Source: a virus. From it: a stretch of DNA of 34,881 bases. How positions within the stretch are numbered: position 1 is the stretch's first letter; the number at the start of each line of letters is the position of its first letter. Shown here piece by piece: positions 12,163 through 30,936 of the stretch. Both the position numbers and the translations under genes were made by a program. The notes under the pieces were generated by a model, which was given only the letters and a program-made list of their open reading frames with translations, did not search any database and was not told the DNA's origin. The DNA is taken from the IMG/VR virus record IMGVR_UViG_3300017748_000037, positions 1-34,881 of that record; one strand, written 5' to 3'.

Positions 12163-12933
12163 CTAAGGATAACTTTTCATAACACTACTACCCACAGAAA
12201 AAAGCTCAACTGCACTAGTATCATCGTTAGATAAAGTAAATTCCATATAGTAACCTCTAGCTCCACTAGATTCTGCCACACTGTTTTTATAATACAATAT
12301 CATCTTACCTGTAGTTGGTATAGTTGCTCCTGCTCCTGAAGCATCTACTGTTACAGTTTTATTTGTCAAAGCAGTTACAGGCCCTGATATTACAGGAGCG
12401 TCAGTGTTACTTCCGGTGACTGTGGCTACATAAATTATATCTCCTATACTTATTATATTTCCAATATCTTTTGTGAACGTAATTACGGTAGCGTTTGCAG
12501 GCCCTGCTGTTGCAGCGCTTATTCCTAGTCCGCTTGCTGATCTTAATTTCCAATCCACAGCACCAGCGTTATTTCTTATATAAGAAAACCATTCTCCTTC
12601 TTTTTGTTCAAAATAAGTTTCTAACATTGAGCCACTATTCAAGTCTGTTTGTAAACTTGTTACAGCCCAACTAGCATTACTTTCAAACGACATAGTCTTA
12701 AACAACTTAATATCTATTGTTGGTCTAGGATTAAACACGCTTGTTATAGTAGATGCACCCTGCACACCATAATAGTTGTTTCTCAAACTATTAGTGTTAT
12801 GCCTGTATAAATTACCATTCTTAAATGAATAAAAATACCCATTCATTCCAATCATCTTTTCAGGAAAAAACGTGTAAAAAGACGGCCATCCTGGCGTTTG
12901 TCCTTCTGGGTTATATGATACTGTTATCGCCAT
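12163..12933 (-). CDS. Conserved tail protein downstream of the stabilisation protein
   Basis: This 256-residue beta-rich protein begins MAITVSYNPEGQ. The first 130 residues contain a block I associate with tail-region proteins of crAss-like and related flavobacterial phages: a WPSFYTFFPEKMIGMNGYF segment, then FKNGNLYRH and an IKLFKTM segment. The second half (about 130-235) is Gly/Thr/Val-rich and looks like a beta-sandwich insert. A longer frame begins at a TTG at 12942, but the ATG at 12933 has the typical TTAATTATGGC context and leaves a two-base gap from the previous gene. It most likely belongs to the tail or muzzle complex, where its exact position is unknown. Confidence 0.6.
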   Translation of the reverse strand: MAITVSYNPEGQTPGWPSFYTFFPEKMIGMNGYFYSFKNGNLYRHNTNSLRNNYYGVQGASTITSVFNPRPTIDIKLFKTMSFESNASWAVTSLQTDLNSGSMLETYFEQKEGEWFSYIRNNAGAVDWKLRSASGLGISAATAGPANATVITFTKDIGNIISIGDIIYVATVTGSNTDAPVISGPVTALTNKTVTVDASGAGATIPTTGKMILYYKNSVAESSGARGYYMEFTLSNDDTSAVELFSVGSSVMKSYP

Positions 12934-12935
12934 AA

Positions 12936-14168
12936 TTAACAACTTTGTGGGAACGTTGAGGCTACTTCACCTAGTGTTCCTGTTATTTGTAAATATCTTC
13001 TATTACCTGCACCTGTAGACGATGGGTCAATTTGATAATAACCCGCCGACAATGGCCCTAATCCTGCTGAGTCTACATAACAATGATCAGTCGCTGCAGG
13101 ATATGTTCCTGAACCATCATGATAGTATACTTGATTTATTGGATATACACTTCCATCTACAGCACACACTTGATTAAACACTGCACTTTGTGATGAATTG
13201 TAAGCTGTTAGACTTGCTCCACAACCTGTTATTGCACTGACTACACCTGAAGCCACTTCAGCTACTGAATTTGCGGTAATCTTATAGAAACCATCAGACA
13301 AAGCTGTAGCTCCTGTGCTGTTTGAAAATACAAAATTACCTGCTTGAGGTATAGTATTTGAGTCTACAACTGGGGGATTTGTTCCTGTTGTAGAAGAGTT
13401 TTTTGCAAAATAATATGTTTGATTTTGAGTTGCACTACATGCAGCTCCTGATGTTCCCTGTACTGCACTACTAGAAAATGAAGGTAAAGCCGTAGGGCAT
13501 ATAGCCTTAAATTGAAATGCTGTTCCAGAACATACTCCTACTAATTGCAATTGAACATTTGCAGGTGAAGCATTTGGTTTAGGTATTACTAAGGTATAGT
13601 AAATATTACCTGTTGCGTTTAAATTTACTGTACCTGAAGCCGGAATTACTATATTAGTATTAGTGCCTGTAGCTACAAAAGCCGATCCATTATATGTATA
13701 ATTAGCAACAGAAGTTGTGCTTCCTTGTAAATCAGATGTGTCACAACCTGATGTTCCAGTTACACCAACAAAGTTTAGTTGACCCGCAGTGGCTATCTCT
13801 ACACCATGACTGTTAGTAGTTAGGGTGTTGTATGTTGCTGAATCATATGTGCCTAATATACCATCTGGTATATTATAGGGTTGGAAATAAACCACGATTG
13901 CACCAACATCTGTACCTGTATTAATATCTACTATATAACTTCCTGTGGTTCCACTAGCTGAAATATCCGTTCCACAAGGCACAGCGCACTCACAATTTGC
14001 GGAAGCTCCTAATGTACCACCAGTTTGTTGTCTGTAAACTGTTGTGCTTTCTGAAGTATCTTGATACCAACCATCAGGTGCTTTACTCGTTAGAGCTGCA
14101 TCTGACCAGACTGCGGTTGCAGTTGAAAACAGTGATGTGTCTATGTAGTATGTACTGTCTTGTGCCAT
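12936..14168 (-). CDS. Cysteine-rich repeat protein, probable tail appendage
   Basis: This 410-residue protein is rich in Ser, Thr, Ala and Gly with about a dozen cysteines, unusual for this genome. Three copies of a loose unit can be seen, at about residues 3-62, 250-322 and 342-410. Each starts with YY or YF, passes a Leu-x-x-Gly-Tyr/Phe-Tyr core and ends at a cysteine. The first copy (TYYIDTSLFSTATAVWSDA) closely matches a unit at the C terminus of the preceding 1607-residue protein. Between copies one and two lies a beta-rich insert. The gene follows the stabilisation protein by four bases. An exposed tail-tip or fibre-like role fits the composition, but receptor binding is only a guess. 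Confidence 0.6.
   Translation of the reverse strand: MAQDSTYYIDTSLFSTATAVWSDAALTSKAPDGWYQDTSESTTVYRQQTGGTLGASANCECAVPCGTDISASGTTGSYIVDINTGTDVGAIVVYFQPYNIPDGILGTYDSATYNTLTTNSHGVEIATAGQLNFVGVTGTSGCDTSDLQGSTTSVANYTYNGSAFVATGTNTNIVIPASGTVNLNATGNIYYTLVIPKPNASPANVQLQLVGVCSGTAFQFKAICPTALPSFSSSAVQGTSGAACSATQNQTYYFAKNSSTTGTNPPVVDSNTIPQAGNFVFSNSTGATALSDGFYKITANSVAEVASGVVSAITGCGASLTAYNSSQSAVFNQVCAVDGSVYPINQVYYHDGSGTYPAATDHCYVDSAGLGPLSAGYYQIDPSSTGAGNRRYLQITGTLGEVASTFPQSC
14097..14155 (-). repeat. Coding repeat unit, copy in the 410-residue gene
   Basis: This stretch encodes the start of the first repeat unit of the cysteine-rich protein. It is recognisably similar in DNA as well as protein to 14576-14634 in the neighbouring gene; both contain ATCTG near one end and a GATGTRGTGTCTAT-like block at the other. 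Confidence 0.5.
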
Positions 14169-24855: not shown

Positions 24856-24871
24856 TAGATTAAATTTTTTA

Positions 24872-24879
24872 CAAAGTTA
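24872..24879 (-). promoter_or_regulatory. Bacteroidota -7 promoter box (TAACTTTG) for scaffold and capsid
   Basis: The box lies in the 44-base gap before the scaffold gene. The sequence running from it, TAACTTTGTAAAAAAT, is repeated exactly upstream of the gene starting at 32335. No convincing -33 element is present. Confidence 0.5.
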
Positions 24880-24899
24880 TACAATTATTTATATTTATT

Positions 24900-25436
24900 T
24901 TAGAGTGTTTTGTAGTAGTTATACATATCCATACCTAACTGTTCTCCTACTTTTCTATCTGACTCATAATGAACATTGGCAAGTATTCTGCTTTTAGATA
25001 TATTTTGAGCAGCTTTATCAAACTCTGGAATCATTTCAGGATACATATCACTTAACACTTCTTTTAATAAGTAAGCCTGTGCTGCATGCCCTGAAGGAAA
25101 CGAAGGAGTTTGTGTTGAGTCTAATTTAACTATAGGAAGTTTTATACCAAACTCAGCTGCTGCAATATATGGTCTTTTTCGATTATGATAGTTTTTAATT
25201 TTTAATATTGGTTTTGTGCTTTCGTCAATTATCTCTTGCACCAATTCAGCAGGAAATTTTCTAGTCCTATTTTTAAATAAACTTTTGTATACATTAAAAA
25301 TAATATCAAACTTATTTGCAAACTGAGCGTCTAAAGGTTTTGACATTAAAAATTTTATCTCCCCTAGTGTTTTTAATGAAGAGTCTGCGGGGTGTTTAAT
25401 GTTTTTGTATTTCTGCCAATTAAATTTTTCAAACAT
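24900..25436 (-). CDS. Soluble PAP2-superfamily phosphatase
   Basis: This 178-residue protein carries the complete PAP2/vanadium haloperoxidase phosphatase signature. Motif one is KNYHNRKRP (Lys81 to Pro89), motif two is PSGH (114-117) with the active-site His117, and motif three is SRILANVHYESD (Ser149 to Asp160) with His156. Members dephosphorylate lipid phosphates, undecaprenyl pyrophosphate or other small phosphates. There is no membrane segment or signal peptide, so this one is a soluble form and could act in the cytoplasm or virion. The ATG follows the portal stop directly (TAAATG). An enzyme of this kind between portal and scaffold genes is unusual; its substrate is unknown. Confidence 0.85.
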   Translation of the reverse strand: MFEKFNWQKYKNIKHPADSSLKTLGEIKFLMSKPLDAQFANKFDIIFNVYKSLFKNRTRKFPAELVQEIIDESTKPILKIKNYHNRKRPYIAAAEFGIKLPIVKLDSTQTPSFPSGHAAQAYLLKEVLSDMYPEMIPEFDKAAQNISKSRILANVHYESDRKVGEQLGMDMYNYYKTL

Positions 25437-30118: not shown

Positions 30119-30371
30119 ATCCTTTCGGTGTATTTTTATTTTTTATTTCGTTACCTTCCAGTAAATCTTTTTCGTCCTCTATTCTTTTTAATATTTCAAA
30201 AGCGTCAAATATGGCTAGTTTTTTAGTAGCTGCTGCATTTTTTAATCTGTCCGCCGCTAACTCATCATCAGCGTCATATTTAATTATGTCTTCTTTAGCA
30301 ACTTTAATTAATTGTAAAACTGCTTTTTCTCCAGCTTTTATTATTTGTTCTTTAATCTGTTTATTATCCAT
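30096..30371 (-). CDS. Small helical protein before terL, candidate small terminase
   Basis: This 91-residue protein is charged and almost entirely helical, with an Ala/Lys/Asp-rich centre (DELAADRLKNAAATKKLAIF). It overlaps the terminase gene by 23 bases and the preceding gene by eight. Small terminase subunits usually lie directly upstream of the large one, but they also tend to carry an N-terminal DNA-binding helix-turn-helix and a larger oligomerisation region. This protein is short and I see no helix-turn-helix. The small-terminase label is therefore a positional guess. Confidence 0.45.
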   Translation of the reverse strand: MDNKQIKEQIIKAGEKAVLQLIKVAKEDIIKYDADDELAADRLKNAAATKKLAIFDAFEILKRIEDEKDLLEGNEIKNKNTPKGFAESRSK

Positions 30372-30936
30372 TATTTAAAACCATTGTTATATTTTCTGTA
30401 TACATTCTGTATAATTTTTCTCCATCAACACTGAACTCATATTCACTATCTGGAGTAAATGATATTTCATCACCAACTTTAACACCTAATTTTTCTAGTT
30501 GATTGTTTATAAATTTCATTCTACCAATTAAAGGTTCTTCTTTTCCTGTTTTATTTAAATAAGATAATTTTACAGGAACAGGTTTTACAAAACAATATTT
30601 AGAATGAGAACGCCATTCACTACCGTTGTAATATAAAAAAAATTGGTCAGGATCTATAAAAAACAAATCATTTCTAAAAAAACTTTTACCACTTTTTTCT
30701 ACACCCTGCATGTCATAATAAAATTTAAAAACATTATGATGTACTAATAATATATCTCCTATTTTTATTTCTCCTTTATAACTTATAGGTATTGAAATAA
30801 CTTGAGCAAAACGGTTGGATGATTTATGGTCTTCTTTTGAAACACTAATTATAAAATCTATGTCGCCAATTTTTTTCTCATTATCATACCTTTTACCTTT
30901 TAATGGACGTACAATAAATGAATATGGAGATTGCAT
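30364..30936 (-). CDS. Probable phage co-chaperonin with two GroES-like halves
   Basis: This 190-residue protein resembles GroES in its ordering of motifs. Residues 5-65 read FIVRPLKGKRY, then a loop with GDIDFII where GroES has its mobile loop, then a QVISIP strand and KIGDILLVHH, the GroES 'VKVGDRVLF' position. Residues 113-188 repeat the pattern: FVKPVPV, IGRMKFINNQLEKLGVKVGD, then EYEFSVDGEKLYRM and ENITMVL, like the GroES C-terminal strands. GroES itself is about 95 residues, so two linked halves fit the length. Phage co-chaperonins (T4 gp31 and others) help host GroEL fold the capsid protein. The gene overlaps both neighbours (one base and eight bases). The call rests on pattern similarity only. 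Confidence 0.6.
   Translation of the reverse strand: MQSPYSFIVRPLKGKRYDNEKKIGDIDFIISVSKEDHKSSNRFAQVISIPISYKGEIKIGDILLVHHNVFKFYYDMQGVEKSGKSFFRNDLFFIDPDQFFLYYNGSEWRSHSKYCFVKPVPVKLSYLNKTGKEEPLIGRMKFINNQLEKLGVKVGDEISFTPDSEYEFSVDGEKLYRMYTENITMVLNNG

Follow-up and report, generated by a model that had tools for sequence, protein, structure and literature searches.

A putative soluble PAP2 phosphatase encoded behind the portal gene, a probable accessory enzyme of phages related to Pervagoviridae and Elemovirus

The window, i.e., the whole stretch of DNA analyzed here, corresponds to a viral record 34,881 bases long. Its minus strand carries, in order and as assigned with PHROGs, genes for a GroES-like protein, the terminase large subunit, the portal, a PAP2 phosphatase, a putative scaffold, and the capsid (Table 1). 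The first-pass annotation had placed the PAP2 gene between portal and scaffold genes. The portal side of this placement is confirmed by a strong PHROGs match, while the gene on the other side is named a scaffold only by its position and acidic sequence, and no Pfam match was found for its product.

Table 1. Features of the window around the PAP2 gene and two further genes of the same strand
Feature	Position	Strand	Basis and remarks
PAP2 gene, 178 aa, ATG start	24900..25436	-	ORF, Pfam, profile, predicted fold
Catalytic motif 1, K81-x6-R88-P89	25170..25196	-	K81, R86, R88, P89 invariant in 156/156 distinct relatives
Catalytic motif 2, P114-S-G-H117	25086..25097	-	invariant in 156/156
Catalytic motif 3, S149-R150-x5-H156-x3-D160	24957..24992	-	R150, H156, D160 invariant in 156/156; S149 is A in 3
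Portal gene, 811 aa	25437..27872	-	phrog_6547, E 1.3e-141; TAA stop abuts the PAP2 ATG, 0-base gap
Terminase large subunit, 749 aa	27869..30118	-	phrog_6681, E 1.2e-175
Putative scaffold, 383 aa	23704..24855	-	assigned by location and acidic sequence only; phrog_16786 (a family of unknown function), E 6.7e-12
Major capsid protein candidate, 488 aa	22216..23682	-	phrog_13704, virion structural protein, E 1.8e-98
Promoter-like box TTGTATAACTTTGTA, contains TANNTTTG	24870..24884	-	between PAP2 and putative scaffold
GroES-like co-chaperonin	30364..30936	-	phrog_13932, E 8.8e-21; Pfam Cpn10 16.3 bits, below cut-off 21.1
Crassvirus muzzle C-terminal domain match	12163..12942	-	PF25729, E 7.7e-13

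The junction between the portal and PAP2 genes is tight. At 38 of 49 sites, the PAP2 ATG shares bases with the portal stop codon, and at 6 others the two are immediately adjacent. Three more sites (loci L024-L026) have a 95-aa basic gene interposed, and gaps of 6 and 24 bases occur in the remaining 2; some loci are repeats of one contig, and neither locus nor junction counts represent independent genomes. PAP2 follows the portal gene in 31/31 loci of the first scan of relatives, with the next gene visible in 30 (L023 is cut off); all 54 new loci of the second scan have the portal gene ahead of PAP2, and 53 of them show the next gene as well (L135 is cut off). Because the start overlaps or abuts the portal stop in 44/49 sites, PAP2 should be made together with the portal protein, late in infection, which supports the earlier proposal that it is produced along with virion proteins. 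The accompanying statement that the gene has no promoter of its own fits the zero-base gap.

The promoter-like box downstream of PAP2 contains TANNTTTG, which is presumably a Bacteroidetes promoter box. This element, or TAACTTTR, occurs within 60 nt upstream of the gene following PAP2 or the portal in 48/49 loci with PAP2 and 53/55 loci without it, as counted without a shuffle control. The exact 15-mer TTGTATAACTTTGTA is found once, and looser copies of it are no commoner than in shuffled sequences. TANNTTTG itself lies within 60 nt upstream of 7/22 minus-strand genes of the window, compared with a mean of 0.77 at shifted positions (P 0.0004), and one of these seven boxes falls inside the terminase gene. 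The boxes provide a map of possible late promoters in the window. Taken together with the junction, the arrangement suggests that PAP2 is the last cistron of a terminase–portal unit, placed before the promoter of the next unit.

The identity of the enzyme is indicated first by its catalytic site. The Pfam model PF01569 (PAP2) recognizes the window protein with E 3.5e-6 and 27.2 bits, exactly the curated cut-off of 27.2, and it matches 23/23 family members in an alignment of 23 relatives at E 0.1 or better. In a sister lineage of PAP2 genes, described below, three of the four proteins scored fall just below this cut-off (L235 26.5, L225 26.5, and L240 24.6), and one lies above it (L246 27.7). 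Residues K81, R88, S115, G116, H117, R150, H156, and D160 are kept in all 156 distinct relatives, a set obtained once partial and odd-length copies had been removed; 249 copies passed the filter, L023, L037, and L059 being partial copies and L009 having an altered C-terminus. Most scan patterns for PAP2 contained motif letters, which biases the sample toward intact motifs; the first-scan patterns held only K81 and P89, and the portal scan held none. The available part of a published description gives the motif with its spacers as KX6RP-(X12-54)-PSGH-(X31-54)-SRX5HX3D (PMC12356135). The window protein conforms to it, with spacers of 24 and 31 residues, as do 72/72 distinct proteins of the first lineage and 78/84 of the sister lineage. 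In the six exceptions, the second spacer measures 29 or 30 residues, and three of these proteins also carry A in place of the S of motif 3. The three motifs reported by the first-pass annotation are therefore confirmed, on an open reading frame with exactly the coordinates it gave, and the enzyme is probably catalytically active, as judged from its conserved residues and predicted structure.

The same annotation had noted that the protein lacks a membrane segment, and this holds for the whole family. The highest 19-residue Kyte–Doolittle mean is 0.73 in the window protein and 1.03 across all 156 proteins, none of which has a membrane-like stretch (a mean of at least 1.6). An export signal is likewise not seen by hydropathy, as the N-terminal 35 residues contain no 10-residue stretch of 1.8 or more in 156/156. 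Cysteine is absent from 153/156 proteins and occurs once in the other 3, which leaves no pair for a disulphide and suits a cytoplasmic protein. The proteins are basic, with median pI values of 9.61 and 9.89 in the two lineages.

Comparisons of fold point to soluble acid phosphatases. A profile built from 23 relatives matches PhoN (2akc) first among solved structures, with E 6.7e-11, and reaches the haloperoxidase 4cit (E 0.0012) and the membrane enzyme LpxE (E 0.0052) more weakly. The AlphaFold2 model of the window protein has a pLDDT of 96.1, and 26 of its 27 Foldseek matches at E of 0.001 or better are acid phosphatase chains, the other being the membrane PAP2 protein 5jki. In VIA alignments, the predicted model superimposes on PhoN 2a96 with Z 18.0 (2.7 Å, 170 residues), on LpxE with 14.6, on 5jki with 14.5, on haloperoxidases with up to 14.0 over 176 residues, and on PgpB with at most 9.4; the structure libraries give only Foldseek-ranked entries, in which a missing family is no proof of its absence. 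A model from the sister lineage aligns with a class A acid phosphatase at Z 18.2 (2.7 Å, 175 residues).

With class A non-specific acid phosphatases (PhoN 2a96/2akc, E. blattae 1d2t, PhoC 9qcj, and M2-32 9htz), the phage protein appears to share a whole-protein fold (Z 14.9-18.0 for the predicted model), the catalytic motif with its spacers, and solubility. The relationship is remote, at 16-21% identity, and the phage protein of 178 aa is shorter than the class A chains of 211-234 aa. Class A enzymes are homodimeric, disulphide-bridged phosphomonoesterases of the periplasm, are made with an export signal, and usually work outside the cytoplasm; the phage protein, in contrast, has neither a signal peptide, as judged by hydropathy, nor a disulphide, and it is encoded in a phage head operon. 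GSYPSGHT is the signature of class A enzymes and is found in 0/156 of the proteins, whose motif 2 mostly reads T-P-[AS]-[FY]-P-S-G-H-[SA]. The NCBIfam PhoC equivalog gives 16.2 bits for the window protein and 35.7 for the best of four proteins scanned, against a cut-off of 430. In effect, the phage PAP2 looks as if it worked like a class A acid phosphatase, yet it falls outside the formal definition of that class.

An action on envelope lipids had also been proposed. An enzyme reaching the envelope through holin lesions or at entry could dephosphorylate lipid carriers, phospholipids, or lipopolysaccharide, and the PAP2 superfamily does include PgpB, LpxE, and undecaprenyl pyrophosphatases. Membrane lipid phosphatases (LpxE 6ebu, the B. 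subtilis PGP phosphatase 5jki, and PgpB) share the superfamily core and catalytic residues with the phage protein, and LpxE and 5jki come next in predicted structural similarity after the acid phosphatases. However, their Z scores are lower than those of the acid phosphatases, markedly so for PgpB, and the phage family has no membrane-like stretch. Weak NCBIfam matches to undecaprenyl-diphosphatase (E 0.0023 and 0.079) occur in L112, one of the four proteins scanned, for which the match to the acid phosphatase PhoC model is stronger (2.8e-7). As the nearest folds of the predicted model are soluble acid phosphatases, the proposal is not supported, and a role in the envelope or in lysis is improbable.

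Vanadium haloperoxidases, whose chemistry is known from marine bacteria and algae, belong to the same superfamily and have active-site residues in common with PAP2 enzymes. The structural alignment given above would allow a vanadate-dependent, haloperoxidase-like activity, but the profile match is far weaker than that to PhoN, and 178 aa is far below the 410-639 residues of haloperoxidase chains, which makes such an activity highly improbable.

The window protein has no PHROGs family (best E 0.11), and none of three proteins scanned matched a PADLOC defence family at E 0.1, the library consisting of defence and not counter-defence models. A tblastn search of 50,697 named phage records gave seven weak partial matches, none covering 80% of the PAP2 query; two of them come from human-faecal fragments that carry no annotation, and host DNA may account for several. 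In BFVD, A0A1B1IV46 (176 aa; TM 0.93, 38% identity) is very likely a member of the same phage family, and A0A516M0A2 (271 aa) matches with TM 0.67 and 29% identity. A scan of bacterial and archaeal genomes found 18 relatives with 26-39% identity, in most cases covering part of the protein, and nothing close enough for a recent cellular donor. In a profile search of eight of these genomes, one from Bdellovibrionales gave the best match (E 1.4e-14), and one genome had none.

The portal gene allows the phage to be placed. Its relatives among phage records are Flavobacterium elemo phages, Cellulophaga and Tenacibaculum phages, Maribacter phage Panino, and the environmental genome MW202828. The portals of elemoA, Panino, and MW202828 are homologous to that of the window, with 47-71% identity, and those of the Pervagoviridae Cellulophaga phage phi38:1 and Calle_3 are 38% identical to a portal of the sister lineage. 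The accessible text of a study on Pervagoviridae, which include Calle and phi38:1, lists the portal and cpn10 among core proteins and describes Calle as a podovirus (PMC8776804). A co-chaperonin gene adjoins TerL in Panino and elemoA. In MW202828, Panino, and elemoA, unlike in the window, the next gene directly follows the portal gene, and no PAP2 was found anywhere in these three whole records. Moreover, the 87 portal-related phage records and the seven records matched by the PAP2 tblastn search do not overlap.

Conservation of the position in related phages had been suggested as a check, and it was found to be partial. Among the best 80 of at least 597 confirmed portal matches, PAP2 is present at the site in 23 and absent in 52, the other 5 being cut off, i.e., it is found there in 23/75 resolvable relatives. 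Among 26 records searched as a whole, 10 contain PAP2, and the 16/16 that are empty at the site hold none elsewhere, many of these records being fragments. On a quick tree of 93 portals without bootstrap, in which five rows have no known state and two carry PAP2 elsewhere, presence of the gene changes 9 times, 8 of the changes being forced by starred branches; a single gain would need 13 losses. An example is provided by L055, which is empty, and L010 and L013, which are filled. Their portal proteins are very close on the tree, the last 1500 bases of the portal genes are ~89-90% identical, and PAP2 takes the place of about 20 bases that separate the portal stop from a conserved element preceding the next gene. 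Distances of PAP2 and portal proteins agree broadly (Spearman 0.73 over 31 rows, whose pairs are not independent). A fixed head-assembly factor can be rejected on these grounds, as PAP2 is optional. The best reading of the comparison is an accessory gene that is kept by uncultured marine phages related to Pervagoviridae and Elemovirus and changes its place.

The site behind the portal gene may also hold other genes, as it does in 9/52 loci without PAP2, of which eight encode small basic proteins there and one encodes a YadA-head-repeat protein. In the latter (L113), a 407-aa protein (PF05658, E 1.3e-24), encoded 43-1266 nt past the portal end, replaces PAP2 in the portal–scaffold gap. What fills the gap between the portal and the next gene can thus be an optional enzyme, a gene for a small basic protein, or one for a protein with YadA-head repeats. 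One contig of 105,284 bases (IMGVR_UViG_3300030101_004148, loci L122 and L155) carries two TerL–portal–PAP2–scaffold–MCP modules with different PAP2 genes and is probably a joined or chimeric assembly.

Where the gene is present, it is under purifying selection. The dN/dS ratio of PAP2 is 0.04-0.28 in 17 pairs, with dS near saturation in some of them. It is nevertheless less constrained than its neighbors: between the window and L005, L038, and L020, the ratio is 0.125-0.134 for PAP2, compared with 0.027-0.050 for the portal and 0.045-0.062 for the terminase, and dN against L005 is 0.165 for PAP2 versus 0.055 and 0.049 for portal and terminase. These ratios, together with the catalytic residues invariant in 156/156, rule out a chance open reading frame and a decayed gene. 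The first-pass annotation had stated that absence from relatives combined with inactivity would mean a random acquisition; absence is indeed frequent, but selection keeps the gene intact, so that a random inactive acquisition is unlikely. A gene taken at random from a host and without function in the phage would agree with the patchy presence and the at least eight gains or losses. It is already contradicted by the invariant residues and the selection, the phage proteins form two clades, and the 18 bacterial loci are distant and mostly partial, which leaves this explanation a very slight probability.

The two PAP2 clades are separated with an SH-aLRT support of 97 on a quick tree without bootstrap. 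In G017 and G018, the two phages of the sister lineage that were read, the portal is 50% and the capsid 47-50% identical to those of the window, and the putative scaffold is also homologous, but no PAP2 lies between the portal and the next gene of their head modules. Across 110 sister loci, PAP2 stands behind a giant gene in 37, upstream of GroEL in 20, downstream of GroEL in 12, upstream of the terminase in 2, and near RNR only in 2, with 37 unclassified. The GroEL label is backed by Pfam Cpn60 (G017, E 4.1e-60; G018, E 2.6e-53), and Cpn60/GroEL is encoded by G005 as well as by these two phages. For the giant protein, neither Pfam nor PHROGs gave a match. As PAP2 is optional in one lineage and located elsewhere in the other, its place among head genes is no proof of virion membership, and the earlier suggestion that this placement implies packaging is not supported.

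The immediate neighbors of PAP2 in the sister lineage are small and strongly basic. A pI of at least 10 was found for 76/79 upstream and 66/67 downstream neighbors, compared with 30/292 background open reading frames; the neighbors counted are mutually related, and the background may include non-genes. Coupled starts connect PAP2 with 74/79 upstream and 66/67 downstream neighbors. In 139 distinct neighbors, 99 [ST]P-K/R motifs occur, against a shuffled mean of 35.8 (300 shuffles, highest 54), and nine of the small basic proteins had no Pfam match at curated cut-offs. The PAP2 frame of L225 (4173-5036) continues into a small basic domain at the C-terminus that is of the cassette type. In L225-L343 (e.g., L254, L231, and L266), PAP2 is surrounded by such cassettes, whose translationally coupled genes encode small Lys/Arg-rich proteins with repeats like MKKAPAKMKK and the motifs PSAYASGWGVRCT and RSSKSNVKGARKKGATLRDWF. 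Similar small basic genes also occur elsewhere in G001, which has PAP2, and in G005, which lacks it.

The proposed function is that of a soluble phosphomonoesterase with a class-A-like fold and site, acting late in the cytoplasm on nucleotides and encoded by an accessory gene; as a whole, this proposal has about an even chance of being correct. PAP2 would be translated by termination–reinitiation with the portal, late in infection, and would remain in the cytoplasm, where the phospho-histidine mechanism of its superfamily may be used to strip phosphate from soluble phosphate esters. By analogy with the superfamily, H156 is presumably the nucleophile, H117 and D160 assist it, and K81, R88, and R150 hold the phosphate. 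The most likely substrates would be nucleoside monophosphates from the breakdown of host RNA and DNA, yielding phosphate and nucleosides. According to the available part of its description, the class A relative M2-32 hydrolyzes 5'-AMP and 3'-AMP far better than pNPP (PMC12356135), and nucleotides are favored here because of this preference and the lack of an export signal. Against the nucleotide part of the proposal, degrading nucleotides during infection could impair DNA synthesis by the phage itself. Against the cytoplasmic part, coupling to the portal and to Lys-rich proteins fits virion cargo equally well.

Virion cargo is the main rival explanation, in which the enzyme would be packaged, or ejected along with the DNA, to work in the cell upon entry. 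It would account for the coupling to the portal in the first lineage and to small polycationic proteins in the sister lineage, for the position of sister PAP2 behind the giant gene, which ends the structural run in G017, and for the basic nature of PAP2 itself. On the other hand, the gene is optional among relatives and not tied to one place, and the cultured relatives Panino and elemoA, searched whole, do without it; the probability of this explanation is low, though appreciable. A more specific variant may also be considered, in which PAP2 provides the enzymatic member of a late cassette that is mobile and translationally coupled and otherwise consists of Lys/Arg-rich, SPxK-type polycationic mini-proteins. 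The cassette would condense phage DNA or enter the virion; produced or delivered together with it, the phosphatase would remove phosphate esters at packaging or entry, e.g., nucleotide signals or competing polyanions. This scheme is rather unlikely to hold in full, and no description of a packaged phosphatase with a polycationic cassette was found in literature searches.

The literature searches also returned no paper on a PAP2 gene in phages related to Pervagoviridae or Elemovirus. In the accessible parts of the papers returned, 'PaP2' denotes a Pseudomonas phage and not the enzyme (PMC6209634 and PMC12747347), PAP2 is named among the genes of a viral contig with giant-virus matches (PMC9469726), the PAP2 gene belongs to the host (PMC10714931), or microbial acid phosphatases are only listed (PMC10987575). 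The proteins described here define a widespread phage-borne, soluble, and probably cytoplasmic PAP2 branch, with at least 508 matching stretches confirmed in one scan. They also serve as a warning that a virion function is not readable from a place in the head operon. With a phosphatase coupled to polycationic mini-proteins, a role in packaging or in the nucleotide turnover of flavobacterial phages becomes a question that can be tested.

Apart from the head module, the window encodes a match to the C-terminal domain of the Crassvirus muzzle protein (Table 1), hinting at a tail architecture common to this phage and crAss-like phages.
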